A DNA stretch of 29,426 nucleotides from IMG/VR virus record IMGVR_UViG_3300042465_002875, positions 1-29,426 of that record; one strand, 5' to 3'. The position numbers were made by a program, and so were the translations under genes. This document shows positions 7,367 through 28,079 of the stretch, in pieces. The number at the start of each line of letters is the position of its first letter. Within the stretch, counting starts at the first letter, position 1. The notes under the pieces are model-generated. The model was not told the origin of the DNA, made no database searches, and saw only the letters and a list, made by a program, of their open reading frames with translations. Source of the stretch: a virus.

Positions 7367-9517
7367 ATGGAAAAAATATACATCAGCAGCTACACTAGCG
7401 TAACCGACAAGCAAGATAAAGACATTGAAATTCACGATTTCCTGCGAGGAATAAAGAACGGCACATGGCAGGATCAGGTTCTTTATGTTCGAACTATTAA
7501 AGATAAGAAAGCAAGATCCGCTGAGAAACAGAAATGTCCTTTGGTTACTGTTTCAGGATCATTCACCGAGCGAAAAGATGCAGCCATTAGGAAACATTCT
7601 GGATTCATTGCCATTGATATTGACAACATTGAAAACTCTGAAACTGTAAAGGACTTGGTTAAGTCAGATCCTTACGTTTATTCGATCTTTGTTTCCATAT
7701 CAGGAAACGGGCTTTGCCTACTAATCCGAATTGATGGAACGCGACATGCGGATGCTTTCGAAGGGTTGGCATCATACCTTTATGAGAATTATCAGTTAAT
7801 CGTTGATCAGTCAGGAAAGAACATAAGCCGGGCAAGATTCATAAGTTATGATCCTGATCTTTACTTAAACGAAAAAGCACAGGTATTTAAAAAATATCCA
7901 AAGAAAGAAAAACAGCAGAAAGTTAATCGCGTGGTATTTGTGAAGTCTGACTTTGATTCAATGATTAAGCAGATGTATGATAGAGGTGTGAACATTTGCG
8001 AGGATTACTCTGAATGGGTTAGTGCTGCTTATTCGATTATTTCAGAGTTTGGAGATGGTGGTCGGGATTACTTTCACACGCTAAGTTCGGTCAGTTCTAA
8101 ATATAATTCAGCAGATACAGATCGCCAGTTCGATGCTTGTTTGCGAAATGGAGGTAGTGAACGAGGAAAGAAAGCTACTATTGCATCTATTTACTTTCAC
8201 GCTAAACAGGCAGGAATTGAAATATATTCAGACAGAACGAAAGAAGTAGTCAGGTCGGCAGCATCGCAAAAACGGGCAGGAGTTAAAGCAGAAGGAGTTG
8301 AAAAGACATTGCATGAATTTGCAGGGATAAGTCCAGAAGAGAGTAGAGAAATAATTAACCAGGTATTCGGAAAGGATATTAAGCATAAATCAGATAATCT
8401 AGTTGATGATGTGATTTCATTTCTAAAGCCTTACAAACTAAAAAAGAACTTAATCTCTAGGGCAGTTGAACTTAAAGGCAAACCTATTGACGATAGCGAT
8501 ATCAATTCACTTTATCTTGACTCTAAGATTGCATTCGAACCAGTTACTAAGGATCTTATTTGCTCAATACTTTTTAGTAACCGAATCGATCAATATAATC
8601 CGATTCATACATTCTTTGCAGGTCGGCAAATAGTTCAAGATCAATGCCCAAATTTATCGCTGCTTATTTCATCCATCGTAACTGATACTCCAAACGCTGA
8701 TAAATGGATTATCAAATGGCTCGTTTCTGCGGTTGCTTCTGCTTATGGGAAACACAGTCCACTTGTGTTGGTTCTTTCAGGCGAGGTGCAAGGAACAGGT
8801 AAAACGCATTGGTTTCGTTACTTGTTACCTCAACAGCTTCAAAGTCTTTTCGCTGAATCAAAGATGGATGCAGGGAAGGATGATGAAATTCTGATGACAA
8901 AGAAGTGGATTATTTTAGATGATGAGTATGGAGGTAAATCCAAACGTGAAGAAAAACGATTGAAAGAAATAACATCGAAGCAATGGATTAACGTAAGAGA
9001 GCCATACGGACGTGTTTCAGTTGATTTAAAGCGTTTATCTGTGTTCTGTGGAACATCCAATGAAACGCAGATATTAAACGATCCTACGGGGAACAGGCGA
9101 ATAATTCCCATACATGTAATCGGGATTGATCAGACGCATTATAACAACTGCGATAAAGAACAGTTATGGGTTGAGATTTATTCGATGTATAAAGCAGGAT
9201 TTGATTATACAGTACTTGCAGAGGAAATAAAACAACTAAATGCAAATACTGAGGATTTCAAACAGTCATCACCAGAGGAAGAACTGATTGCGGTTAAACT
9301 TTGTACAGATGGATTTGCTCCCGAATGGATGAACATCACTCAAATCATTCAATACCTAATCTCAGACACCAAGTACAACAACTTAGCGAATAATCGTGTA
9401 GGAACAATACTGTCTAATCTTGGTTTTGAAAAGAAACGAATGAAAATGGGAGGATCAACAGTTACTGCATACAAGGTAAACAAGCTAAGCAATGGGCAGC
9501 CTAACCCATTCGCATAG
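7367..9517 (+). CDS. BT4734/VirE-type primase-helicase
   Basis: This protein of 716 residues is the likely replication initiator. The N-terminal part (about 45-180) fits the BT4734/VirE N-terminal, primase-polymerase-like domain, with SGFIAIDIDNIEN and ISGNGLCLLIRI. A PriCT-2-like linker follows (about 200-285; SEWVSAAYSIISEFGDGG and RGKKATIASIYFHAK). The C-terminal virulence-associated E/SF3-like ATPase (about 400-650) has Walker A GEVQGTGKT (471-479), Walker B WIILDDEY and CGTSNETQILNDPTGNRR, a sensor-type segment. A helical, possibly winged-helix tail ends the protein. It is followed by a 312-bp non-coding iteron cluster, a plausible binding site for it. VirE-type primase-helicases are typical of Bacteroidota phages and mobile elements. 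Confidence 0.9.
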   Translation: MEKIYISSYTSVTDKQDKDIEIHDFLRGIKNGTWQDQVLYVRTIKDKKARSAEKQKCPLVTVSGSFTERKDAAIRKHSGFIAIDIDNIENSETVKDLVKSDPYVYSIFVSISGNGLCLLIRIDGTRHADAFEGLASYLYENYQLIVDQSGKNISRARFISYDPDLYLNEKAQVFKKYPKKEKQQKVNRVVFVKSDFDSMIKQMYDRGVNICEDYSEWVSAAYSIISEFGDGGRDYFHTLSSVSSKYNSADTDRQFDACLRNGGSERGKKATIASIYFHAKQAGIEIYSDRTKEVVRSAASQKRAGVKAEGVEKTLHEFAGISPEESREIINQVFGKDIKHKSDNLVDDVISFLKPYKLKKNLISRAVELKGKPIDDSDINSLYLDSKIAFEPVTKDLICSILFSNRIDQYNPIHTFFAGRQIVQDQCPNLSLLISSIVTDTPNADKWIIKWLVSAVASAYGKHSPLVLVLSGEVQGTGKTHWFRYLLPQQLQSLFAESKMDAGKDDEILMTKKWIILDDEYGGKSKREEKRLKEITSKQWINVREPYGRVSVDLKRLSVFCGTSNETQILNDPTGNRRIIPIHVIGIDQTHYNNCDKEQLWVEIYSMYKAGFDYTVLAEEIKQLNANTEDFKQSSPEEELIAVKLCTDGFAPEWMNITQIIQYLISDTKYNNLANNRVGTILSNLGFEKKRMKMGGSTVTAYKVNKLSNGQPNPFA

Positions 9518-9518
9518 C

Positions 9519-9818
9519 GGTTGCAGGTTGCAGGTCGGTTGCAGGTTTAAAAATACAAGGGTGCAACCTCTCAAACCCTACTCTATCAACACATAGATGA
9601 TATAGTTGCAACCACAAAAAAAAATATGGTAATAAAGTATAGATAACATGCACACACACACACATACACACATACACGCACACATTATGATATATTTATA
9701 TTTGTTCTGGGTACTATCGAAAATGTGTGATTTAACCTGCAACCCTGCAACCGAACCGCTGAATACCTACATAGACGTGGTTATAAGCGGTTGCATACTT
9801 ATTCATCAACCTGCAACC
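9519..9818 (+). repeat. Iteron cluster, candidate replication origin
   Basis: The 312-bp gene-free stretch between the primase-helicase and HNH genes holds GGTTGCAGG at 9519-9527, 9526-9534 and 9537-9545, and its complement CCTGCAACC at 9736-9744, 9744-9752 and 9810-9818. There are partial copies at 9562-9568, 9606-9613 and 9789-9795. The two clusters, AGCGG-flanked on both sides (9516-9550 and 9731-9760), form an imperfect inverted repeat of about 30 bp around a purine-pyrimidine tract and an AT-rich block (9684-9703). Iterons plus an AT-rich melting region next to a replication initiator gene are the hallmarks of an origin. The function is inferred; an alternative is a regulatory repeat region. 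Confidence 0.65.
9646..9685. repeat. CA-rich alternating purine-pyrimidine tract
   Basis: Forty bases alternate purine and pyrimidine without a break, including seven CA units in a row (9651-9664) and further CA groups interrupted by TA and CG steps. Such tracts can adopt Z-DNA under negative supercoiling and are prone to slippage, so their length may vary among relatives. It lies between the two iteron clusters. Confidence 0.85.
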
Positions 9819-15994: not shown

Positions 15995-17922
15995 TAAAAG
16001 TAATTGTAAATGATTATGAGATTGAATTGTTTTCAGATACTGTTGTGGCTTTATCAAAGAAATGTGCTACAATTGGAAATCTTCAAAACAGATATAGTTC
16101 ATTTACTAATAAGTTTAATGTTCCTAAAACAAGATTAAATAGGTCTGCTCTTGGCATAACTCAGTTCCAAGATAATTCAGGAGCACCTTATTCACCATTA
16201 AATGGAAAGATTATTTCTGATGGAATCGAAATTGCTTCGAATGTAACAGTCATTATTGAATCAGTATCAGATAGTATTTCGCTTTCAATTCGTGCAGGTA
16301 ATGGAAGTTTATTTGATAGATTTAATACCACTTACCTAAGTGATGTTGATACTTCTGATTTGGATAGATATTGGAACAGAGCAAGCATTTTAAATGCAGT
16401 TACGAATGATTGGACTGATGGAATAATATTCCCAATTTGTCAAACAGGAAATCAAAGTTTAATTTTTAATACGATTCAGATTAAAGGCATGATACCTTTT
16501 GTATTCTGCAAAAATCTATTTGAGCGCATAGCTTTAATGTTCGGGTACACTTGGACAGGATCAACTTACACAAACGATCAGTTTGAAAAGTTAATGATTG
16601 CAATATCAAGTTTGAATATTTCACAAAGATTTGCGGATCAATTTAAGACTACTGCTAGTGCAGATCCTGCAACATACGTTTCAATCGGTGGTGGTAATGA
16701 TACGGAGCAGTATGTTGGATTAACTTCTATTTATGATCCGTGGTCTTTGCTTAATACAACGAATCTTCCACCAAATGTTGATAGTTATAAGATTCCTGTT
16801 CCTGGAACTTATCTACTTCAGTTTGATTATGATATTACTGTTGAGCATTTAAATTCAGTTGGGGCAGCATTTCTTGATTTTACAGCAGCAGCAACAGGAA
16901 CTATTGCTGCAATAACAACTGTTGATTTAACTCCAACACTTCCTGATGTACCTCAGAATTTCACAGGAACATTAAGCATTGAATTTACATTTGATACTAT
17001 TCTTGATAATAATTCAATTTTAACAGCGAATGCTTTTTCTTATTTGTCTTATTTATCAGGTGCTGATGCAGGTTCAACATTTACATTAAACTCAGGTCAA
17101 TTCAGAGTTCAAGAAATTGCAGCACCTGAAACACATTTTAACAGACCACTATCAATTGCCGACCATTTACCTGAATGGACTATTGGGAAATTCGTAAAAG
17201 AGGTTGGAAATATATTCGGAGCAATATACGATGTTGATGAATACACTAAAGAAATTGAGATTACAAGACTTGATGAAATTTCAACAAATAAAAATGAAGC
17301 ATTAGATTGGAGTGATAAACTTGACCTATCAAAAGAAATACTGGTTACATTTATTGCATCAGGTATTGGTCAAACAACTACACTTCAATGGAGTGAGTTC
17401 TTACTGTACTCATACAATCTAAATGTTGCAAATGATCAGTTGCCCGATAATACAACTTACATAAAATCAGAGGCGGATTATTCCATTTCAGCAATATTAG
17501 GACAGCAAACAATTCCTGTTATGAGTTTTGATGTTTGGGATTTTGACAATAGTAGAATTGTAATGGATGACGCAGCACGATTTGGAATTCTTGGCAGTAA
17601 TCCCGGTACATCAATTATTGGAAACGCATTCGTAGGAACAACAAGCCCATTTCCATTTGCTTACTTTGATTACTCAGGATCAGAACATTCATTGGATTGG
17701 GGTGTATTGTTTTCAAGATATTTTGATTCATTGTTAATTCCAATGACTGATAAGATTCAACGAGTTACTTGCTACGTTAGATTGAACGATGTGGACATTC
17801 AGAAGTTTAAATTCAAATATCCAATATTCATTCAGCATTTTAATCGTTATTTTTACGTGGACGAAATAAGTGAATATACAGGCAAGAATCAATCTACTAA
17901 AATCGTGTTAATGGGTATCTGA
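15991..17922 (+). CDS. Large tail/baseplate-type protein, unassigned
   Basis: This 643-residue protein has an N-terminus of a type seen in Bacteroidota phage structural proteins: a short beta domain (MIKVIVNDYEIELF) and the conserved-looking SSFTNKFNVPKTRLNRSALG (about 40-59). The rest is beta-rich with aromatic and Asn-rich segments (TYLLQFDYDITVEHL), ending in a strand pair NRYFYVDEISEYTG. It has no catalytic motif. It is directly before the tape measure (TGATG overlap), so it is probably part of the tail tip or distal tail complex rather than the head. Confidence 0.6.
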   Translation: MIKVIVNDYEIELFSDTVVALSKKCATIGNLQNRYSSFTNKFNVPKTRLNRSALGITQFQDNSGAPYSPLNGKIISDGIEIASNVTVIIESVSDSISLSIRAGNGSLFDRFNTTYLSDVDTSDLDRYWNRASILNAVTNDWTDGIIFPICQTGNQSLIFNTIQIKGMIPFVFCKNLFERIALMFGYTWTGSTYTNDQFEKLMIAISSLNISQRFADQFKTTASADPATYVSIGGGNDTEQYVGLTSIYDPWSLLNTTNLPPNVDSYKIPVPGTYLLQFDYDITVEHLNSVGAAFLDFTAAATGTIAAITTVDLTPTLPDVPQNFTGTLSIEFTFDTILDNNSILTANAFSYLSYLSGADAGSTFTLNSGQFRVQEIAAPETHFNRPLSIADHLPEWTIGKFVKEVGNIFGAIYDVDEYTKEIEITRLDEISTNKNEALDWSDKLDLSKEILVTFIASGIGQTTTLQWSEFLLYSYNLNVANDQLPDNTTYIKSEADYSISAILGQQTIPVMSFDVWDFDNSRIVMDDAARFGILGSNPGTSIIGNAFVGTTSPFPFAYFDYSGSEHSLDWGVLFSRYFDSLLIPMTDKIQRVTCYVRLNDVDIQKFKFKYPIFIQHFNRYFYVDEISEYTGKNQSTKIVLMGI

Positions 17923-20699
17923 TGGCAAACGAAACTACTGAAATTCTAAGGCTTGTACTGGATGCAGATCAAGCAATCAAGAAAACTGCTGACCTTAAAA
18001 AGCAGCGAGATTCACTTGCTGATACTAACAAGGTTCTGACTATAACTGAAGGAAAGAATTCAGAGGCTGTATTGAAAAATGATGCAGCAATTAAGATTCT
18101 GAATCAAGAAATTGCCAAACAGACAAAGGAAACAAATAATCTTGTTAAGGCTCAACTTGCTGCTGAAGGTTCGAATGATCAATTAAAGGCTCAACTGTCA
18201 ATCCTTACTGCTCAATACAATGCACTAAGCAAGGCAGAACGTGAAACATCTGTTGTTGGTCAGGCATACGCAGATCAGATAAATGTTATTACCGAAGAAC
18301 TAAAAGGAACAGAAGGGGCAATCGGTAATTTCAGAAGGAATGTAGGTGATTACGAAGGGGCAATTAAAAGAGCAGGCACATCATTAACAGATCTCAAAAC
18401 TAGACTTGCAGAAGTTCAGAAAGTTGCTCAGACAACTGATATTAATACGCAAGAATTTAAAGATGCTAGGGATGAGGCAGCAAACTTAGGGCTTCAGATC
18501 GGGCAGTTAGAAGGCAAGTTAGATGAGTTCGGAAATCGTGAACCAAAGAATCCTGCAAAGAAAGCATTTGAAGACACTGTCAATACTGCTGTAACATTAG
18601 GTTCAACACTTGAACTTGTAAATCTTGCATTTGGTGAGAATGAAGATGTTCAAGCAGCAACAGCTAAATCATTAAAAGCAATTGCGATTGCTCAAACTTT
18701 GGCGAATATCGCAAAAGAAGCAGGAGCAGTTATTGATACAATTGCACTAGCTAAATCAGCAGCACTTACAGCAGGCAATTTTATATTAGCAGGCTCAACA
18801 ACTGTATTAACGGGAATCACAACTGCATTTGGTGTGGCATCTGGAATAGCTTGGGCAATCGCAACACTAGGAGTTGCTGCATTGATAGCAGGTATTGTTT
18901 TGCTTGTTGCAAACTTTGACAAGGTGTTGAATGCAGTAACTGATTTTCTTGGTTTGACATCGGAACAAGAACGGGCAACAAATAAACTGAATGAATCCTA
19001 TGCTGCTCAACTTGTTACTTTGAATGATTTAATTGAGAAAGAGAAAGCTAGAGGTGAAGTGGTTAAGACTGTCTTTGATAGGCAGATTAAATTACAACAG
19101 TCATTAGGTAGAGATACAATTGCACTTGAAAAAGAAAAAGAAAAAGCATATCAACAAACATTAATTGCTCAAAATGCTGCTGCCCAAAAGTCTGCTGATA
19201 TTATTAAAAAATCAAATAATGGAACTGCTAAACAGTATGGTGAATTATTAAAAACAATTCAAGAAAATAACAAGGCAATTCAAGAATCAAAAGACAATAT
19301 TACTATTGCAGAAAATGAGGCGAATCAGAAAAGAATTGAGGAGCAAAAAAAGACAGATGAAAAATTGTCTGCTGCACAAAAATCAGCAAATGATAAATTG
19401 AAAGAAGCACAAAAGAAATATCAGGAAGATATCAAAAGTCTTAACGAAGAATTTCTTTTAAATGATAGACAACGACTTGAAAAATCATTTACAGATAAAC
19501 TTGCTGTAGTTAAAGGTAATGGTGAAGAAGAAGTAAAACTACGTGCAGCAATTGAAAAGGCAAAAAAAGAAGCATTAGACGTATTTGATGCTGAATCTGC
19601 TGCTTCTCAATTAGCAAGAGAACAGAAGAAAAAAGATGATATACTAGCAGTTCAATCAGGTTTAATCAATGATCAAATTGCTTTGAATGATACTTTACAG
19701 CAAAACGAATTGTCAGCCGTTGATAATTCAGTTGATTCGGAAAGAGATAAGGTAAGCAAAAAGGCTGAAATAAATTTAAAGTTTCTTCAAACTCAGTTAG
19801 ACCTTGCACAAAAGTTAGCTGATGTTGATGGTATAGTAACCGAACAAGAACTGGCAAACATTGAAAAAGTAAAGCAAGCAATAATTGGAGCGCAAAATGC
19901 AATTACACAGGCTCAACTTGAAAACCCACCAAAAACACTTGGTGAACTTTTTGGAACAAGTCCAGAAGAAAGTGCAAAAATTGATGCTGCAATTGAATTT
20001 ACTAAAGAATCTCTTGCCAATGTAAGTTCACTAGTTAACGAAAGATTTCAAAGGGAAATTGATGGAATAAATCAAGTTGCGGATGCTGAAATTGAAGCAG
20101 TTGATCGCAGTGCTTTGAGCGAAGAAGAAAAAGAAAAAAAGAAAATTGAGATAAATAAAAAAGCAGCAAAGCAGGCATACGCAATTCAACTAAAACAGTT
20201 CAATGCAGACAAGGCTTTGAATTTAATAACTGCTGTAATAAATGGAGCGCAAGCAGTTTTGAAATCAATCGCACTACTCGGACCAGTTGCAGGAGTTATA
20301 GCAGCAGGAATAAGCCTTGCCTCAATAAGTTTAATTGCACAACAACAACCACCACCACCACCATCATTTGCAGGCGGAGTAGTTGGCATGATGGGAGAAG
20401 GAAATGGAACAAGTGATTCAATACCTGCTTACTTATCAAGAGGCGAATCCGTAATTACCGAACGAGGTACAAACCTATCAGAACAAATTAATCCCGGTTA
20501 TCTTGCGTGGTTGAATAAACCAAATAAATTCGCAACAGGACTTGATCCAATTCAAAGTAGTTTTATCCCACCTCAATCGGTTGATGTAGGTCAGCAGATA
20601 CGTGAGGCAATTGCAGGACTCACCATTGTAACTAAAGTAACTGACATTGATAAGGCTCAAATTGATAGAAGGCAAGTAAGAGATGTATCTGTGATATAA
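17922..20699 (+). CDS. Tail tape measure protein
   Basis: This 925-residue protein sets tail length and may help DNA entry. It is largely coiled coil, with long Lys/Glu/Gln/Ala-rich helices (about 10-230 and 345-760; for example EKEKEKAYQQTLIAQNAAAQ). There are two hydrophobic helical regions, about 268-335 (GVASGIAWAIATLGVAALIAGIVLL) and 760-808 (LLGPVAGVIAAGISLASISL). A run of five prolines (about 809-814) leads into the Gly-rich FAGGVVGMMGEGNGTSDSIP segment and SRGESVITERGTN, a common C-terminal pattern of tape measure proteins. It is the largest gene in the window and overlaps its neighbours by one base on each side. Confidence 0.92.
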   Translation: MANETTEILRLVLDADQAIKKTADLKKQRDSLADTNKVLTITEGKNSEAVLKNDAAIKILNQEIAKQTKETNNLVKAQLAAEGSNDQLKAQLSILTAQYNALSKAERETSVVGQAYADQINVITEELKGTEGAIGNFRRNVGDYEGAIKRAGTSLTDLKTRLAEVQKVAQTTDINTQEFKDARDEAANLGLQIGQLEGKLDEFGNREPKNPAKKAFEDTVNTAVTLGSTLELVNLAFGENEDVQAATAKSLKAIAIAQTLANIAKEAGAVIDTIALAKSAALTAGNFILAGSTTVLTGITTAFGVASGIAWAIATLGVAALIAGIVLLVANFDKVLNAVTDFLGLTSEQERATNKLNESYAAQLVTLNDLIEKEKARGEVVKTVFDRQIKLQQSLGRDTIALEKEKEKAYQQTLIAQNAAAQKSADIIKKSNNGTAKQYGELLKTIQENNKAIQESKDNITIAENEANQKRIEEQKKTDEKLSAAQKSANDKLKEAQKKYQEDIKSLNEEFLLNDRQRLEKSFTDKLAVVKGNGEEEVKLRAAIEKAKKEALDVFDAESAASQLAREQKKKDDILAVQSGLINDQIALNDTLQQNELSAVDNSVDSERDKVSKKAEINLKFLQTQLDLAQKLADVDGIVTEQELANIEKVKQAIIGAQNAITQAQLENPPKTLGELFGTSPEESAKIDAAIEFTKESLANVSSLVNERFQREIDGINQVADAEIEAVDRSALSEEEKEKKKIEINKKAAKQAYAIQLKQFNADKALNLITAVINGAQAVLKSIALLGPVAGVIAAGISLASISLIAQQQPPPPPSFAGGVVGMMGEGNGTSDSIPAYLSRGESVITERGTNLSEQINPGYLAWLNKPNKFATGLDPIQSSFIPPQSVDVGQQIREAIAGLTIVTKVTDIDKAQIDRRQVRDVSVI

Positions 20700-20929
20700 T
20701 GGGCAGACTTGAACAAATTACCGAACTAACTAAATCAGGTCAATTAACTGACTTATTTAGAAATGGATTAATTGGATATAAAACATTACTTTACAGAGAT
20801 ATTTATTTTTCCGTTGAGGTAAACATTGCACTTGGATTTTCGCAAGTTCAATCTGTTTCCAATGTTGCTGATGAATTTGGAGTTTCAGAACGTACAATCT
20901 GGAGAGCAATTAAATTTATGAAAGAATGA
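20699..20929 (+). CDS. Small HTH protein at the head of the glycan cassette
   Basis: This 76-residue protein has a C-terminal helix-turn-helix, SVSNVADEFGVSERTIWRAIKFMK (about 52-75), of the sigma-4/Mor-like or AsiA-independent simple type. The N-terminal half (LTKSGQLTDLFRNGLIGYKTLLYRD) is helical and aromatic. It overlaps the tape measure by one base (TAATG) and the glycosyltransferase by ATGA, so it is expressed with the tail genes. It could regulate the cassette or act on late transcription; a DNA-binding role is inferred from the HTH alone. Confidence 0.65.
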   Translation: MGRLEQITELTKSGQLTDLFRNGLIGYKTLLYRDIYFSVEVNIALGFSQVQSVSNVADEFGVSERTIWRAIKFMKE

Positions 20930-22296
20930 CAATCGGAGTTATAACACCTCATCAAGATTCGAAGCGCAAAATGTTCTTGGATAGATTAACCTTTTATATT
21001 CAACGTCAAACACTCAGACCTGACCATTGGATTATAGTTGATCACAAAGAAGACGTGTTGGCAAAAGACCTAACAAAGCGAATCAGAATAGGATGCGAAG
21101 AGGCAATTGAACTTGGATGTGATGTGGTGTTGATTATGGAGGATGATGATTGGTATTCTCCTAACTACATTAAATCAATGATTGAGTTTTGGGAGATACA
21201 AGGCAAGCCCGAAATATTTGGATGCGATAAGACTACTTATTACCATATTAAGCAAGGGCAATTTGTTGAGTTAGATCACCCCAATAGGGCAAGTTTAATG
21301 CACACTCTAATTTCAGCAGAAGGAATTAAAAAGATTGTTTTTCCTGAAGATTCATTTGTGTTTCTTGACATCGAATTATGGAAGCAATTAAAGGGTAAAA
21401 CATTCAGAACATTACCAACGATCGCAGTTGGAATTAAACACGGGATCGGATCAACAGGTGGCAAAGGACACTTGGAAACATTCAAAGGTTATCAACCTGA
21501 TCCTGAATACAAAAAACTCAGACAACTGATTGGTGATGATTCTGATTTTTACATTAACATTTTCCATCCTGAAGTTAAGAAAAGAAAAACAATTGCGATT
21601 GTTACGGGAGTTTGGAAACGTCCAGAGGTGTTTGAAATGTTTGCAAAGGGTATTGATCATTTAATTAAGAACTCAGATTTTAATTATTATGTGATTGTTG
21701 CAGGATCGGAAGGTGAACGATCACGAAAGATGGTTGAATCAAAAGGTTATATTTATTTGGAAGTGCCGAACACACCACTTGCAGCTAAGATGAATGCAAC
21801 AACTATCAAGGCAGGACAATTAGGTTGCGATTACGTTCTTTGTCTTGGTTCTGATGATGTGATTTCACCTGAGTTGATGAATGTTTATTCAAAAGAAATT
21901 GAAAAGGGAACTGACTTTATCGGATTAACTGATTTTTATTTTTACGATACGACAACTAACAGGGCTGCATATTGGGGAGGTTATATTGATGCTAGAAGAT
22001 TAATGCATACAGCAGGAGCAGGTAGATTGATTTCAGCTAGATTAATGGTAAAATGGAACTGGCAGCCGTGGGAAAACAAACACAGTCATATCTTGGATAA
22101 TTCAGTTCAAGAAAAGTTAAAGTTAACACCTCATTCATCTGCTTCGATTTCATTGAAAAAGAATAATGTTTTTGCACTAGACATTAAATCTTCTGAAAAT
22201 ATGACACCATTCCAACTTTGGGAAAACACTCATTACATAGATTTAAACGTAATAAAAAAAGCAATGCCTTATGTGTGGGATAGCAGGGATATTTAG
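20926..22296 (+). CDS. Tandem GT-A glycosyltransferase
   Basis: This 456-residue protein appears to hold two GT-A (GT2-like) domains. The first (about 1-215) begins MTIGVITPHQDSKRK and has the acidic metal-binding motif MEDDDWY (about 71-77). The second (about 222-456) begins TIAIVTGVWKRPEVFEMF and has LGSDDVIS (307-314). Each motif sits at the end of a hydrophobic strand, as in DxD-bearing glycosyltransferases. They should transfer sugars from nucleotide-sugar donors, perhaps one after the other. The gene heads a coupled set with amidotransferase, acyltransferase and another transferase, so it probably builds or decorates a surface or virion glycan. It overlaps the next gene by 26 bp. Confidence 0.75.
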   Translation: MTIGVITPHQDSKRKMFLDRLTFYIQRQTLRPDHWIIVDHKEDVLAKDLTKRIRIGCEEAIELGCDVVLIMEDDDWYSPNYIKSMIEFWEIQGKPEIFGCDKTTYYHIKQGQFVELDHPNRASLMHTLISAEGIKKIVFPEDSFVFLDIELWKQLKGKTFRTLPTIAVGIKHGIGSTGGKGHLETFKGYQPDPEYKKLRQLIGDDSDFYINIFHPEVKKRKTIAIVTGVWKRPEVFEMFAKGIDHLIKNSDFNYYVIVAGSEGERSRKMVESKGYIYLEVPNTPLAAKMNATTIKAGQLGCDYVLCLGSDDVISPELMNVYSKEIEKGTDFIGLTDFYFYDTTTNRAAYWGGYIDARRLMHTAGAGRLISARLMVKWNWQPWENKHSHILDNSVQEKLKLTPHSSASISLKKNNVFALDIKSSENMTPFQLWENTHYIDLNVIKKAMPYVWDSRDI

Positions 22297-23725
22297 CAAA
22301 TCACTTAAACCTGAATTATATCATAAGGACATAGCAACTCTTATGATGGACAAACAAGTTCACAGGGGGCAAGATCATTTTAGCGTTAAGATTCATGGTG
22401 CTGTAACTGTTGCATTTAATAGACTTGCTTTAACCGATATTGATAAACAGCAGCCATCCGATAACAGTTGGATTGTTTATTTGAATGGTGAAATTTATAA
22501 TTACAAAACATTTGGATATACAGGATCTGAGGTTGAGGTTATCGCAAAAGGATTACGGGATTACGGATTGAATTTCATCAATGAACTCAATGGTATGTTC
22601 GTGATTGTCGCAATAAAAGGTGATCAAGTATACATCATACGTGATCGTTTCGGAATTAAACCTATCTACTATTGGGAGAGGCATGAAACAATTGTTTTCG
22701 CTTCAGAATGCAAAGCAATAGTTGGTCATCCTGAATACATCACATCATTAAATAATAATGTAGCAAGGCAATGGTTAGTATTTAACAATGTGTTGACAAA
22801 TGAAACTTTATTTTCAGGAATTAAAAAACTTGAAAAGGGTACGATTTGGCATTTAAATAGTGGGAATAAAAAGAAATATTGGAGTTGGAATTTCGAACCT
22901 ACTCAAATGGATTTTAATGAGGCAAAAAATACAGTCCTAAATTTATTGAATGAATCAATGGTCGAAAAATACAGATCAGATGAAGCAGGTATATTTGTTT
23001 CGGGTGGTGTTGATTCAAACATTATTAGAAATCTATTTAGTGAATTACCAACTTATACTGCTTGCTTTGATTCGGGTGATGAAAGCGAATTGGCTCGTTT
23101 GTTGGCAAATGATAAACACACGGAAATTTACTTTGATGGAATTTATAAACTAGATAAGACCATTTATCATCTTGAGGATTTACGAGTTGGAGCAAGTTTT
23201 TCAAATTATGGGCTTTACGAATATGCTTCCAAAACAGGATGCAAAGTAATTTATGATGGAACGGGATCAGATGAATTATTCGGTGGTTATCCATGGAGGT
23301 ATTCAATTTCGGATTATTATTCAGTAGTTAATCGAACTGGTGTTGAGGATGAATATTGCAGAGGGCTTTTCAATGAGTTATTTCCTGAAGATACTTTGGA
23401 AAATCGGTTTAAATTTGATGCCGAATATTTCTTGGAAGGTGTTTTGCTCGTTGGTGATAAACTTGGAATGGCTCACACAATTGAAGGTAGATATCCATTT
23501 CTTGATAATGATCTTGTTGATTTTTGTTTGAAATTACCTAATGAGTTTAAGAATAATAAATTACTTTTGAAAGAGGCATTTCGTTCTATCATTCCAAATG
23601 AGATTCTTGATGGAAAGAAAAAAGGTTTTAGTTCTCCAGATTATTTTGAAGGTGAAGGAAACCAAGCAAGAAAATGGAGCAATGCAGCATTAACTAAATG
23701 GAAAGAAATTTATGAACCATCCTGA
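22271..23725 (+). CDS. AsnB-like glutamine amidotransferase (asparagine synthetase family)
   Basis: This 484-residue protein has both AsnB domains. The N-terminal class II glutaminase has nucleophile Cys2 (MCGIAGIF), HRGQD (31-35), NRLAL and NGEIYNY (about 72-78). The C-terminal ATP-PPase has the P-loop SGGVDS (244-249), GTGSDELFGG (about 331-340) and EGRYPFLDNDLVDF. It is shorter than E. coli AsnB (554). AsnB relatives in surface-polysaccharide clusters (such as the WbpS type) amidate uronic-acid sugars with glutamine nitrogen; within this glycan cassette that role is more likely than asparagine supply, though substrate is not shown. HRGQD replaces the usual HRGPD. It overlaps the previous gene by 26 bp and the next by 14. 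Confidence 0.88.
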   Translation: MCGIAGIFSKSLKPELYHKDIATLMMDKQVHRGQDHFSVKIHGAVTVAFNRLALTDIDKQQPSDNSWIVYLNGEIYNYKTFGYTGSEVEVIAKGLRDYGLNFINELNGMFVIVAIKGDQVYIIRDRFGIKPIYYWERHETIVFASECKAIVGHPEYITSLNNNVARQWLVFNNVLTNETLFSGIKKLEKGTIWHLNSGNKKKYWSWNFEPTQMDFNEAKNTVLNLLNESMVEKYRSDEAGIFVSGGVDSNIIRNLFSELPTYTACFDSGDESELARLLANDKHTEIYFDGIYKLDKTIYHLEDLRVGASFSNYGLYEYASKTGCKVIYDGTGSDELFGGYPWRYSISDYYSVVNRTGVEDEYCRGLFNELFPEDTLENRFKFDAEYFLEGVLLVGDKLGMAHTIEGRYPFLDNDLVDFCLKLPNEFKNNKLLLKEAFRSIIPNEILDGKKKGFSSPDYFEGEGNQARKWSNAALTKWKEIYEPS

Positions 23726-24233
23726 TCATTCAATCTACGAGCAAAGTTTTGATTTTGACGAATCAAATAAGATTCACCCAACTGCAATTATTTATCCAAA
23801 TGTAACGATTGGACAAAATAATATCATCGGTGCATATTGCGTGATTGGCTCAAATGGTGAAATAAGAGGCATGCAAGAATTTGAAGGTCGTGTTGAGATT
23901 GGAAGTGGAAATACTATTTCAGAACTTGTTACGATTCAAAGACCTGCTGCTGCTGATAAGAAAACAATTATCGGTAATGATAACATTATAATGGCTCACA
24001 CTCATATCGGGCATGATGCTGTGATAGGTAACAACTGCGAACTATCAACAGGAACAATTGTCGGAGGTTATTGCCATATTAATGATGGTGCAAAAATCAA
24101 ACTAGGTGTAACGATTCGAAACAGAAAGATTATTGGTCGGGAGGCTGTTGTTGGAATGGGAGCAGTAGTAACTAAGGATGTTGAACCAGGTTTAACTGTT
24201 GTGGGAAATCCTGCTAAAATATTAATCAAATGA
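23712..24233 (+). CDS. LpxA-like left-handed beta-helix acyltransferase
   Basis: This 173-residue protein consists of hexapeptide repeats ((I/V)G-x4) giving a left-handed parallel beta helix: TAIIYPNVTIG, VEIGSGNTIS, TIIGNDNII, AVIGNNCEL, KIIGREAVVGMGAVVTKDV, VVGNPAK. The segment ELVTIQRP...NIIMAHTHIGHD aligns by eye with E. coli LpxA, placing His101-Asp102 at the catalytic His125-Asp126 and His98 at His122. LpxA has an extra C-terminal helical domain (about 262 residues in total) that is lacking here, so the enzyme is a shortened form. It should acylate a nucleotide-linked sugar, for example on an amino sugar. It is coupled (ATGA) to the next glycosyltransferase-like gene. Confidence 0.85.
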   Translation: MNHPDHSIYEQSFDFDESNKIHPTAIIYPNVTIGQNNIIGAYCVIGSNGEIRGMQEFEGRVEIGSGNTISELVTIQRPAAADKKTIIGNDNIIMAHTHIGHDAVIGNNCELSTGTIVGGYCHINDGAKIKLGVTIRNRKIIGREAVVGMGAVVTKDVEPGLTVVGNPAKILIK

Positions 24234-24991
24234 AACTATGTTTCGCTTACACAGTCTTTAACGGATTTGAATTATTGCAAGGCAGCATTAACCAAATTAA
24301 AGATCATGTTGATGAAATAGTAATTTGCTTTCAAGACATTTCGAATCGTGGAAACTTTAATGCAGACATTGAAAATCAAATTGATCAACTTGAAGGTGTT
24401 TCAATTATCAAGTTTGTTCCTGATTTAAAAGCGGACACGAAAACAAACGAATTAAATAAACATAATTTAATGATTGATGCTGCAAGACATTTGCATTGTA
24501 CGCATATTATTGTCAGCGCAACAGATCACTATTATAAATCAGATGAGTTTATTCAAGCAATTGGATTGGGGCAGAATTACGATTGCACCTTTACATCCAT
24601 GTACACTTATTACAAGAATCCAACTTGGCAATTATTACCTATTGAAGATTACAAGATGCCGTTTATAATGAAGATTTATCCTGAGAGTAAATTTGTGAAA
24701 TCAGTTCGATATCCTGTTCTTGTTGATCCTTCTGTAAAAATTAATACTGTTGGAAGATTTCATGTGTTTTCAGAATCTCAAATAATGATGCATCATTATT
24801 CGATGGTCAGAAATAACATTGAAGAAAAGTTTGTGAATGCAGCAAGTCCGACAATGGCTCAAATAAAGTCAGCAGGCTATATTGATGAGTTTGAGAATTA
24901 CAATGCCGAATCAGATAATGGAATTAAATATTTTCAAGGGCGGAAGATTAAAGAAGTGCCGAACTATTTTGGGATAGATGTTCGTTTATAG
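24230..24991 (+). CDS. GT-A-like glycosyltransferase-type protein
   Basis: This 253-residue protein has an N-terminal Rossmann-like start (MKLCFAYTVFNGFELLQGSI, then HVDEIVICFQD) of GT2-type transferases. A metal-site candidate SATDHYY at about residues 99-105 follows HIIV, and a late His-rich motif IMMHHYSMVRNNIEEKF resembles the C-terminal His motif of some GT-A enzymes. The nucleotide-sugar and acceptor are unknown. It starts in ATGA overlap with the acyltransferase and ends convergently inside the minus-strand gene (44-bp overlap). Its role as glycosyltransferase is likely but not certain from motifs alone. Confidence 0.65.
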   Translation: MKLCFAYTVFNGFELLQGSINQIKDHVDEIVICFQDISNRGNFNADIENQIDQLEGVSIIKFVPDLKADTKTNELNKHNLMIDAARHLHCTHIIVSATDHYYKSDEFIQAIGLGQNYDCTFTSMYTYYKNPTWQLLPIEDYKMPFIMKIYPESKFVKSVRYPVLVDPSVKINTVGRFHVFSESQIMMHHYSMVRNNIEEKFVNAASPTMAQIKSAGYIDEFENYNAESDNGIKYFQGRKIKEVPNYFGIDVRL

Positions 24992-25346
24992 ATACTGTTG
25001 TGTAAAGTGAACCATTTTCATCAACCTTGCTTTTAAAAATTACTGCATCATGTCGGAATAATGCGTCTTGGTCAAACATGTACATATCAAGCTGATATGC
25101 TTTTAAATAAAATTTTTGTATTTCAACTCTTAACTTTCCGAACATCCTTTCAATGGCTTTGAAATGTGCTTTATGTTCGGCTGGGTTGCTTATCGGAATC
25201 AATCCCCAGTAACATTTGCCTATTGAAGTCTCATAAGAATTAATATATCTTACATTTTTAATTCTAAAAATCATTTGTTTAAGATCTTCATAATTAGTTA
25301 TGTTCTTATTTTTGCCGTTCGGCTTTATGTAAAATCCAATGTGCAT
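24948..25346 (-). CDS. Unknown 132-residue protein on the minus strand
   Basis: This is a soluble protein with an aromatic and basic N-terminal half (MHIGFYIKPNGKNKNITNYED) and a helical middle (FKAIERMFGKLRVEIQKFYLKAYQLDMYMF). It has no membrane helix or known motif. It follows the minus-strand gene at 25357-25881 by 10 bp and probably shares its transcript. Its last 44 bases overlap the plus-strand glycosyltransferase-like gene tail to tail. It is probably part of the glycan cargo by association; function unknown. Confidence 0.6.
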   Translation of the reverse strand: MHIGFYIKPNGKNKNITNYEDLKQMIFRIKNVRYINSYETSIGKCYWGLIPISNPAEHKAHFKAIERMFGKLRVEIQKFYLKAYQLDMYMFDQDALFRHDAVIFKSKVDENGSLYTTVSINEHLSQNSSALL

Positions 25347-25356
25347 AGTCTAATTT

Positions 25357-25881
25357 TTAATATTCAAATATAGGAATAATCCCAAGCAAAGCACAATCAG
25401 GATTAAACTTCAGTAGCTTTAATTCACAACCATTCTTTTTCAATTCAAGGTGCAAGGCTCTGAAATCTTTTCTGATTCTTTCAATCATAAAGTCTTTACC
25501 TAAGTTTGGATGACCAGTTATGTCAACTCCTGCCAAATGTATTTCTGTTGCTCCCATGTAGAATGCATGAACTACGGCAATAAATGGAGAGCAGATTGAA
25601 TGACAATAAAAATCTCTTCTGCTTAGTTGATTAACACTTGATCTTTGAGTTGTAAATCGAATTAATTGTGCAGGTCGCAATTGCCTCCATGAATCAAGTT
25701 GAGTAAATAGTTTTGCCTTGTGATTAATTATGGTTTGCTTTCTGACACTTAAAAATACAGAAGGATTATCGCAGACAATTAAATGGTCAACGGGGAATGG
25801 GCAATCGTTTACTCCAACAGTTAAATCATAACTATCAGAGTAAAACTTTGAATCACTTAATCCTGTTACTAAGGCTGTCAT
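25357..25881 (-). CDS. Rossmann-type protein, DUF115/GT42-like
   Basis: This 174-residue protein has the pattern of DUF115/MptE-like and GT42 sialyltransferase-like enzymes: an early strand-loop DLTVGVNDCPFPVDHLIVCDNPSVFL (about 19-44), then HAFYMGATEIHLAGVDITGHP (about 110-130), where hydrophobic strand, GVD and following loop resemble the nucleotide-sugar site region. The short length means perhaps only the core fold is present. It would fit the neighbouring glycan genes, though transcribed in the opposite direction. I am moderately sure of the fold and unsure of the reaction. Confidence 0.5.
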   Translation of the reverse strand: MTALVTGLSDSKFYSDSYDLTVGVNDCPFPVDHLIVCDNPSVFLSVRKQTIINHKAKLFTQLDSWRQLRPAQLIRFTTQRSSVNQLSRRDFYCHSICSPFIAVVHAFYMGATEIHLAGVDITGHPNLGKDFMIERIRKDFRALHLELKKNGCELKLLKFNPDCALLGIIPIFEY

Positions 25882-25900: not shown

Positions 25901-25927
25901 GTAAATCAATAATGAACTTTGTCCCCG

Positions 25928-26998
25928 ATGGCAGAGATACACGTTAATATCTTCGGGGAAATTGGATGGGAGAATAATCTTCAATCCGTATCTGCTCAAA
26001 CCAAGTCAGCAACTAAGGATGATTACATTGTACTTCATATTCATTCACCAGGCGGTGAAGTAAATGAAGGCTTTGCAATTTATGATCATTTGGTAGGTCT
26101 TGGGATTGATGGTGAAACTCGCATAGAAGGACATTGTGCATCTATTGCAACTGTTCCTGCGATGGCTTACAAGAAAAGAACCATCACCGAAAATTCAAAT
26201 TTCTTTGTTCATAATCCGTGGACAATGGCAGAAGGTGATGCTAGTGCATTAATAGATACAGCAGAGCAATTAAAGGCAATTGAAAATAGGATTGCAACAT
26301 TTTACTCACGGGTAACAGGAAAATCAGTTGATGATATGCTTGCGCTAATGGCAATTGCAAATGAAATTAAGCCAACACAAGCGAAAGAACTTGGATTTGT
26401 TACCGACATTATCAAGCCTGTAATGGCAATGGCTTCACTTAAATCAAACAATCAAATAAACCAAATAACAACTGAAACAATTATGGACTTTTTAGCAAAA
26501 ATGAAATCCGACATGAACAACCTATTCAAAGGTGTTAAAAATCAACTACCTGAAAATGCAGTTCTAAATTCAATTACTGCAACTCTTACCGATGGAAATG
26601 AAATTGAAATCATTACTGACTCTGATATGCCTGCTGTTGGTGATGCAGTTGTAATGGTTGCATCTGGTGAGGCTGCTCCAAACGGCGATCACACACTTGA
26701 AGGAGGTACAATAGTTACTACATCGGAAGGAATCATTACTGCAATCGTTGAAGCAGTTGTTGAAGCAGAAGATTTACAAGTTGAAAATTCAGCTTTGAAA
26801 TCTGAACTAGAATCTGTTAAAGCAGAACTTTTAGAAACTCAAAATTTGTTTACTGAATTCAAAAACAAACTTGAAGGAAAGCAAATGGTTTACAATCGTA
26901 CACAGCGCACATCATTTTCCGACAAAAACGTAAAAACTGCAAATCGTCTTTCAGGATTAAATCTGCTTGACAAAACTAAATACCAAATTAAAAAGTAA
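25928..26998 (+). CDS. ClpP-type prohead protease fused to a scaffold-like tail
   Basis: The start is ATG 25928 (MAEIHVNIFGEIG); a TTG at 25919 would add three residues. Of 356 residues, about 1-165 are a ClpP/S49-like protease: HSPGGEV (39-45), nucleophile Ser72 in GHCASIA, His95 in FFVHNPW. The second part holds a beta-rich module (ITATLTDGNEIEIITDSDMP and GTIVTTSEGIITAI) often seen in Bacteroidota phage head proteins, then a coiled coil (ENSALKSELESVKAELLETQ). A fusion of protease and scaffold is a known solution for making the prohead; self-cleavage would free the scaffold. It lies directly before the major capsid gene. Confidence 0.88.
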   Translation: MAEIHVNIFGEIGWENNLQSVSAQTKSATKDDYIVLHIHSPGGEVNEGFAIYDHLVGLGIDGETRIEGHCASIATVPAMAYKKRTITENSNFFVHNPWTMAEGDASALIDTAEQLKAIENRIATFYSRVTGKSVDDMLALMAIANEIKPTQAKELGFVTDIIKPVMAMASLKSNNQINQITTETIMDFLAKMKSDMNNLFKGVKNQLPENAVLNSITATLTDGNEIEIITDSDMPAVGDAVVMVASGEAAPNGDHTLEGGTIVTTSEGIITAIVEAVVEAEDLQVENSALKSELESVKAELLETQNLFTEFKNKLEGKQMVYNRTQRTSFSDKNVKTANRLSGLNLLDKTKYQIKK

Positions 26999-27029
26999 TC
27001 AAACCCCAAAACCAAATAACAGACAAACA

Positions 27030-28079
27030 ATGGCAATTCTAAATCCTTCAGACCTGACTTTTAACGGAGAGGAAATCCGTTCGATCCGTGATGCGATCAT
27101 GGAAGCGGTTTACAACAAACCTGCTGTAACCGATTTTCATACGATTTATCAGGATATTGTAACAAAAAAACAAATTGTCTTTCTTGGAAGACTTGGTAAA
27201 ATTAGCCGTGTTGATGCAGGATGTGGATCTTCTCCTTTGAATGCAAACATCACAATGACTCAGAAATTCTGGGAACCAGTTCGTTTTGAAATTTGGTTGT
27301 CTGAATGTTACACCAATTTAGAAGATACTTTCTTTGTTTGGTCAAAACAACGTGGAATTAACGAGCCTGACTTAGTTGGAACAGACTTTGCAAGTTTCTT
27401 GATTGAGCGTATGACTGATGCAATGAGCGAAGATGTACTTCGTATGGCTTGGTTAGATGATACAACTGCTGAATCAGTTGATTCAACTCCATCAGGTATT
27501 CTTTCATCGGGTGTTAATCCTGCTGACTACAATGCATTCGATGGCTTTTGGAAGCAATTATTCACAATCGGAACTCCACGCTATGTAATACCTGAAAATT
27601 CAGGAGTGAGTTACACAGCGCAAGATGCATTAGCAACTGATCGTGCATTACTTGTATTCAGAAGTCTTGAACAAAATGCTGATTATCGTTTGAAATCTGC
27701 AACAGATAAAGTTATTATTGCAACACAATCTCTTGTAGACAACTACGCAACTTATCTTGAAACACAAGGTAACGATGCATCATTTATTCGTATCGAAGAA
27801 GGCTTCAGCGTACTACGTTATCGTAACCAAGTAATCTACGGATTTGATTTGTTAGATCGTTACATTCGTGCTGATTTTGATAATGGTGTAACTTGGGATA
27901 TTCCACATCGTGCAGTTCTTACAACCAAATCAAACTTGGCTGTTGGTGTTGATGCTGCTTCTGGACTTACAGACCTTGACAATTGGTTTGAGCGTAAAGA
28001 CAAAACAACTAACTTCCGTGGCGGTTACAAATTGGATGTGAAAGTTCTTGAAGATTACATGGTTTCACTTGCTTATTAA
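27030..28079 (+). CDS. Major capsid protein, HK97-fold type
   Basis: The ATG at 27030 (MAILNPSDLTFNGEE) is chosen over one at 26967 that would lie inside the protease gene; this gives 349 residues. The protein has the pattern of Bacteroidota phage capsid proteins: a helical N-terminus (RSIRDAIMEAVYNKP), a central region (WEPVRFEIWLSECYTNLED), ERMTDAMSEDVLRMAW, and a C-terminal half with YRNQVIYGFDLLDRYIRADF and GGYKLDVKVLEDYMVSLAY. Its position after a protease-scaffold supports a capsid. No signal or membrane segment is present. It should be the most abundant protein of the virion. A short A-rich gap precedes the next gene. Confidence 0.85.
   Translation: MAILNPSDLTFNGEEIRSIRDAIMEAVYNKPAVTDFHTIYQDIVTKKQIVFLGRLGKISRVDAGCGSSPLNANITMTQKFWEPVRFEIWLSECYTNLEDTFFVWSKQRGINEPDLVGTDFASFLIERMTDAMSEDVLRMAWLDDTTAESVDSTPSGILSSGVNPADYNAFDGFWKQLFTIGTPRYVIPENSGVSYTAQDALATDRALLVFRSLEQNADYRLKSATDKVIIATQSLVDNYATYLETQGNDASFIRIEEGFSVLRYRNQVIYGFDLLDRYIRADFDNGVTWDIPHRAVLTTKSNLAVGVDAASGLTDLDNWFERKDKTTNFRGGYKLDVKVLEDYMVSLAY

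Follow-up and report, generated by a model that had tools for sequence, protein, structure and literature searches.

Phages can carry glycosyltransferase (GT) cassettes such as gtrABC, in which the membrane flippase GtrA and membrane GTs bring about O-antigen conversion. Here, we analyzed a GT cassette in a 29,426-base virus record (IMG/VR IMGVR_UViG_3300042465_002875, positions 1 to 29,426; this whole stretch is called the window) that resembles gtrABC in being a phage GT cassette but appears, from its sequence, to encode no membrane protein and sits in the chain of structural genes. We conclude that it is probably a cytoplasmic virion-glycosylation system composed of a constant GT pair and exchangeable glycan-building genes; its most likely role is to cover the virion with a customized sugar chain.

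Few cases of phage virion glycosylation were met in the available parts of the literature searched. Glycans on the capsid and tail tube of mycobacteriophages are reported in PMC12619734. In mycobacteriophage virion glycosylation, as described in work citing Freeman et al. (2023), the GTs are phage encoded, as they are here, and the glycan that we propose would likewise be on a capsid or tail protein. In contrast to the mycobacteriophages, the present locus combines several enzymes (for amidation, acylation, methylation or oxidation), is exchangeable as a block, and includes a Maf-like protein. According to PMC7591256, flagellin is a substrate of Maf and is glycosylated in the cytoplasm. The predicted fold of C7, an antisense protein of the window, resembles that of the Maf flagellin glycosyltransferases, suggesting by analogy a cytoplasmic glycosylation of soluble protein; the model also shares the fold of the GT42 sialyltransferase CstII. 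Unlike Maf, C7 is a 174-residue core (chain 5mu5 has 632 residues), is phage borne, and has no sequence-level match to a solved Maf. Cellulophaga phage phi18:1 carries one GT gene (gp41) in its structural module, according to PMC11946311, and the GT genes of the window also stand within or beside structural genes of a probable Bacteroidota phage; however, a single GT is reported for phi18:1, and no GenBank phage matched C2, the double GT of the window, or its N-terminal half (C2N) from the related locus L083. In the literature searches, mostly at the level of listings, neither this kind of cassette nor a phage protein resembling Maf was described.

Results

A constant gene pair brackets exchangeable cassette contents

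The original prediction placed genes for a helix-turn-helix (HTH) protein (C1), a double GT-A protein (C2, with halves C2N and C2C), an AsnB-like amidotransferase (C3), an LpxA-like acyltransferase (C4), and a GT-like protein (C5) in one chain, alongside two antisense genes (C6 and C7). All seven open reading frames (ORFs; Table 1) were found where predicted, and their overlaps and families agreed with that description. The overlaps amount to 1 base (tape measure/HTH), 4 bases (HTH/GT), 26 bases (GT/AsnB), 14 bases (AsnB/LpxA-like), and 4 bases (LpxA-like/C5), so that the simplest reading places the plus-strand cassette on the tail gene transcript. The same gene order in relatives and low ratios of nonsynonymous to synonymous substitution rates (dN/dS) indicate that the arrangement is not due to chance.

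We defined the slot as the space between the HTH gene or the tape measure gene and the head protease gene, and collected related loci (numbered with the prefix L) by a capsid alignment (A1), which yielded 80 viral loci (the best 80 of 97) and eight loci from bacterial genomes. Both sides of the slot were in view in 56 loci including the window, and removal of three duplicates left 53 distinct slots. A cassette with both C2N and C7 filled 13 of these, whereas 25 were empty (at most 100 bases between the HTH or tape measure gene and the protease gene), 12 held 100–1000 bases without C7, and three (L073, L087, and L097) held more than 1 kb without C7. C2N and C7 were thus found in 13 of 13 filled slots and in none of the other 40. 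Mapping the cassette label onto a 61-row capsid tree requires five changes, at least four of which are forced by well supported branches. These results bear out the proposal that a glycan-building set was inserted between the tail and head modules, and a comparison among relatives showed the block to be neither universal nor identical, the 13 cassettes differing in content. The relatives L003 and L005 carry C1, C2, C3, C4, C5, and C7 at 85–100% identity and lack C6, and L008 carries C1–C5 at about 46–76% identity up to the end of its record. C1 had been counted as a cassette member; since it is also present in cassette-free slots, it is a backbone gene, and its candidacy as a cassette regulator was rejected. 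In Bacteroides phage BS-TP3 (L198:5–1264), a gene annotated as RagB/SusD-like stands directly before the Clp protease gene, which is the slot position.

The constant pair C2N and C7 brackets genes that are exchanged between cassettes. The window type has AsnB and LpxA-like genes in the middle. In L012 and L014, there are instead an antisense gene for a WbuX-like N-acetyl sugar amidotransferase (TIGR03573, 1e-48; 166.5 bits, below the 203.2-bit cut-off) and a further two antisense genes, of which one is C2C-like. L013, L015, L017, and L037 carry a GT gene and a 2-oxoglutarate (2OG)-Fe(II) oxygenase gene (7e-17 for L013), L067 and L078 carry GT genes and a methyltransferase gene (9e-17 for L067), and L069 carries a gene for a 410-residue protein without family match together with two LpxA-like genes. 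The minimal cassettes of L082 and L083 encode only a 461–469-residue protein, a 123-residue protein, C2N, and C7. L073 lacks both C2N and C7 but encodes a GT and a methyltransferase-like protein, and in L088, GT genes lie on the far side of the HTH gene. The 461–469-residue protein beside C2N and C7 (L082:5907–7289, phrog_16509; L083:5884–7293) is a possible glycan acceptor. A 123-residue cassette protein encoded among the GT genes of L015 (10618–10989) gave a SufE-like match (5.9e-6) just under the cut-off.

Table 1. Genes of the cassette and its borders in the window
Feature	Coordinates	Strand	Remarks
Tape measure protein gene	17922..20699	+	Upstream border; phrog_37298 (9.5e-12), a family without named function
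C1, HTH protein, 76 residues	20699..20929	+	Backbone gene, kept where the cassette is absent
C2, double GT-A protein	20926..22296	+	N half C2N, C half C2C
C3, AsnB-type glutamine-dependent amidotransferase	22271..23725	+	Family matches and motifs
C4, short LpxA-like left-handed beta-helix transferase	23712..24233	+	173 residues; shorter than LpxA
C5, GT-A glycosyltransferase	24230..24991	+	Predicted model
C6, antisense ORF, 132 residues	24948..25346	-	In insertion; possibly no gene
C7, antisense Maf/GT42/MptE-fold protein, 174 residues	25357..25881	-	Predicted model
ClpP-type head maturation protease	25919..26998	+	Downstream border
Major capsid protein	26967..28079	+	Relative of Bacteroides phage BS-TP3 gp3

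The module recurs at fixed structural sites in other backbones

A search of the viral collection gave 172 C5 relatives; the best 80 were retrieved and reduced to 58 representatives. Three backbones accounted for 41 of them: 11 were in the window backbone (12 with L121, counted there by its tape measure and HTH genes), 19 in backbone B (contractile tail; sheath phrog_165, terminase phrog_15), and 10 in backbone C (portal phrog_11226). The 17 unassigned representatives are mostly long contigs without other cassette genes. The LpxA-like gene directly precedes C5 in 28 of the 58, and the C2C/AsnB/LpxA/C5 module recurs at fixed structural sites: between terminase and tail sheath in backbone B (10 of 10 loci in which both flanks are visible) and 24–107 bases before the portal gene in backbone C (9 of 9 loci in which that side is visible). 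C7, searched for by BLAST, was present in 11 of 11 window-backbone loci, in none of 29 in backbones B and C, and in one of the 18 that the automated assignment did not place. Being compact, exchangeable, and fixed in its structural position in each of the three backbones, and accompanied in one of them by a conserved Maf-like protein, the cassette makes up a defined gene set.

The enzymes keep their catalytic motifs

Glycos_transf_2 matched the second half of C2 (2.5e-6), and C2C is a separate gene in other phages. C3 matched Asn_synthase (2.2e-43) and GATase_7 and keeps the Cys nucleophile and the NGEIYN, SGGVDS, and GTGSDELFGG motifs; among the AsnB homologues, the cysteine motif MCGI was found in 16 of 16 (as MCGL in L135) and the SGGxDS loop in 15 of 16. 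C4 matched Hexapep (1.4e-20) and scored 106 bits against LpxA TIGR01852, below the cut-off of 231.05. Its HIGHD sequence aligns with LpxA, and the HxxH motif, whose second histidine we take to be the catalytic base of LpxA, aligned with LpxA in 20 of 21 LpxA-like proteins, L069 having NIGHN. Family searches of single proteins gave no confident match for C5, C6, or C7. The C5 model (pLDDT 95.5) adopts a GT-A fold, and its nearest solved folds, in a list crowded by GT-A folds, were ThuS (Z 14.3) and SunS (Z 13.3), glycocin S-glycosyltransferases that glycosylate peptides. Within C5, a 58-base stretch (24762–24819) matches its own reverse complement at 76% in a self search, forming an imperfect palindrome.

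Compared with L005, dN/dS was 0.13 for C2, 0.07 for C3, 0.07 for C4, 0.06 for C5, and 0.08 for C7, with the capsid protein at 0.05 and the tape measure protein at 0.23. Judging from these ratios and the conserved motifs, the window enzymes are under purifying selection with their catalytic motifs kept. Relatives among GenBank phages were distant: C5 had kin at only ~25% identity, in 15 Lak phage records, and all AsnB and LpxA-like matches were below 60% identity.

Family knowledge suggests that AsnB would amidate a carboxyl sugar and that the LpxA-like enzyme would acylate or acetylate an amino sugar. L032 (8001–9995) encodes AsnB-type and LpxA-like proteins fused in one 664-residue ORF, which supports a joint pathway. 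Alternatively, AsnB might make asparagine and the other genes might be unrelated late cargo collected at an insertion hot spot. C3 does score above the cut-off of the asparagine synthase model TIGR01536 asn_synth_AEB (278.6 versus 267.1 bits), and AsnB is missing from many cassettes; however, unrelated backbones again show AsnB next to these GTs and the LpxA-like gene, and three of the four distant AsnB members scanned (L009, L133, and L010) fell below that cut-off, with L122 above it. We therefore regard such mixed cargo as quite improbable.

The antisense protein C7 has a predicted Maf-like core

Only one of the two predicted antisense genes is conserved. C7 recurs in the cassettes and is antisense in all loci in which the survey detected it, whereas C6 falls within an insertion when compared with L003 and L005, is an ORF unique to the window among close relatives, had no relative in our searches, and is possibly not a gene. 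One antisense protein had been called DUF115/GT42-like, and the C7 model (pLDDT 95.9, from a 17-row alignment) agrees with this: it matched CstII (Foldseek E 1.7e-4; VIA-align Z 10.1) and, by VIA-align, Maf of Magnetospirillum (Z 12.8, rmsd 3.0, 159 residues aligned). The predicted C7 fold thus resembles the core of Maf flagellin glycosyltransferases and of GT42 sialyltransferases, although fold likeness of modeled C7 or C5 does not show function. The nearest viral model is an uncharacterized phage protein, an MptE-like PF01973 match was found in 5 of 17 C7 family members (best 4e-4), and no GenBank phage held kin of C7 from the window or from L083. NeuB, an enzyme of nonulosonate synthesis, was encoded in two of five host genomes of relatives, and a nonulosonate donor for C7 is therefore possible.

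Probable virion glycosylation and its alternatives

Virion glycosylation is favored by several lines of evidence. The chain runs on from the tape measure gene with an overlap and no gap, the module occupies fixed structural sites in two other backbones, none of C1–C7 has a membrane segment, and the predicted fold of C7 is that of a cytoplasmic protein glycosyltransferase; these points strengthen the earlier argument that the late position favors virion decoration. In addition, empty and filled slots (25 and 13) imply at least four to five gains or losses on the capsid tree, the constant pair marks every filled slot while the contents change, dN/dS is 0.06–0.13, and mycobacteriophage capsid and tail tube glycans provide a precedent. 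Finally, a search of 201 genomes from the family to which one prophage host belongs detected neither C5 nor C7, whereas control viral records that were known or expected to carry them were positive in 8 of 8 and 9 of 9 cases.

Late in infection, the phage enzymes would build a short modified glycan in the cytoplasm from host sugar nucleotides, and this would be attached to a protein of the particle, either ahead of assembly or in its course. The constant steps near the acceptor, perhaps including the addition of the first sugar to the protein, would fall to C7 and/or C2N, and C2C and C5 would extend the glycan, with AsnB and the LpxA-like enzyme amidating a carboxyl sugar and acylating or acetylating an amino sugar. 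Where these two are swapped for a WbuX-like amidotransferase, a 2OG oxygenase, or a methyltransferase, the outer sugar would change, which would give related phages different surface chemistries. We tentatively extend this to a phage "serotype" locus, a possible reading that we hold with less conviction, in which a backbone-bound Maf-like transferase and GT set the glycan start site and modules are traded across backbones. If so, the surface sugar of the particle would be switched by gene exchange, as bacteria switch O-antigens. Natural relatives with and without the cassette allow the role of particle sugars to be tested; candidate roles are protection from decoys or debris, altered binding, and changed recognition by grazers or immune systems.

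Several observations weigh against virion glycosylation. The C7 model also matches an MptE-type pterin kinase of Methanocaldococcus (VIA-align, Z 10.3), and the C7 profile matches no solved chain by sequence at E ≤ 1. Co-transcription with structural genes is not universal, because C7 itself is antisense to the cassette chain and because the backbone B cassette is antiparallel to the structural genes in 7 of 10 loci (parallel in 3 of 10). A search for the acceptor through Ser/Thr-rich stretches revealed no difference between four carriers and six empty relatives. C7 tracked the capsid slightly more than C5 did (r 0.45 versus 0.24, 13 loci), but the bootstrap interval includes zero, so an excess co-evolution of C7 with the capsid is only suggestive. 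AsnB alone could simply make asparagine, the 239-residue L168 GT has a weak resemblance (8e-5) to the GtrB enzymes of O-antigen conversion, and a 192-residue cassette protein of L013, one of seven scanned from other cassettes, has a hydrophobic stretch (1.78).

The main rival is modification of the host surface, in which a lipid-linked O-antigen or capsule repeat of the host would be altered at the cytoplasmic face and the infected cell or its debris would no longer bind the phage or its competitors. O-antigen loci typically encode AsnB-, LpxA-, and WbuX-like enzymes, and peripheral GTs can act on lipid-linked glycans; the GtrB-like GT of L168 and the antiparallel backbone B loci are also compatible with this rival. 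However, the cassette had been likened to a miniature O-antigen locus, and that likeness holds for a glycan-building set and is otherwise loose: family searches recognized no flippase, polymerase, lipid-linked transferase, or sugar-nucleotide synthesis gene in the window cassette. The 19-residue hydropathy mean was at most 1.36 in all of C1–C7, compared with 2.12 and 1.96 for the window proteins g3 and g4, indicating that the cassette proteins are soluble and without a membrane segment. The chain overlaps tail genes, and the modeled C7 fold is that of protein or terminal-sugar transferases. Moreover, the cassette is absent from all five relatives from bacterial genome assemblies with the slot in view (L110, L111, L112, L114, and L117), which we infer to be prophages, a setting in which lysogenic conversion would be advantageous. 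The lack of membrane proteins, the tail-gene position, and these five cassette-free relatives together weaken host-surface modification, which we consider unlikely, if still the most serious competitor.

Decoration of modified bases in the phage genome by the GTs and transferases has a counterpart in virus GTs that hypermodify DNA, known to us from a paper title. Nevertheless, this appears highly improbable, as none of 14 phage records (all possibly incomplete) had a thymidylate-synthase-like gene, a control was positive in 9 of the 14 genomes, and the cassette position is late.

Host and other features of the window

TerL relatives were mostly from phages of Bacteroides, Flavobacterium, and Phocaeicola, with 32 Enterococcus among 258 records. 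Capsid relatives lay in bacterial genomes labeled Sphingobacteriaceae, Pedobacter, Mucilaginibacter, Lutibacter, Leeuwenhoekiella, and Aquimarina, and two of the eight came from genomes labeled Methylophaga and Gammaproteobacteria. These labels make a Bacteroidota host likely.

In the window, the count of a Bacteroidota-type promoter pattern was not above chance, sigma-70 and terminator scans gave results at or below those of shuffled sequence, and Rfam and tRNA searches returned nothing. The upstream border gene encodes the tape measure protein, as indicated by its size, repeats, and position. A CA/TG-rich, microsatellite-like stretch at 9500–9690, just before an HNH-like gene, gives ORFs of alternating H/T or V/C. 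The listed TTG start of the capsid gene (26967–27029) adds 21 residues that are absent from L005, and the gene probably starts, like that of L005, at the ATG near 27030.

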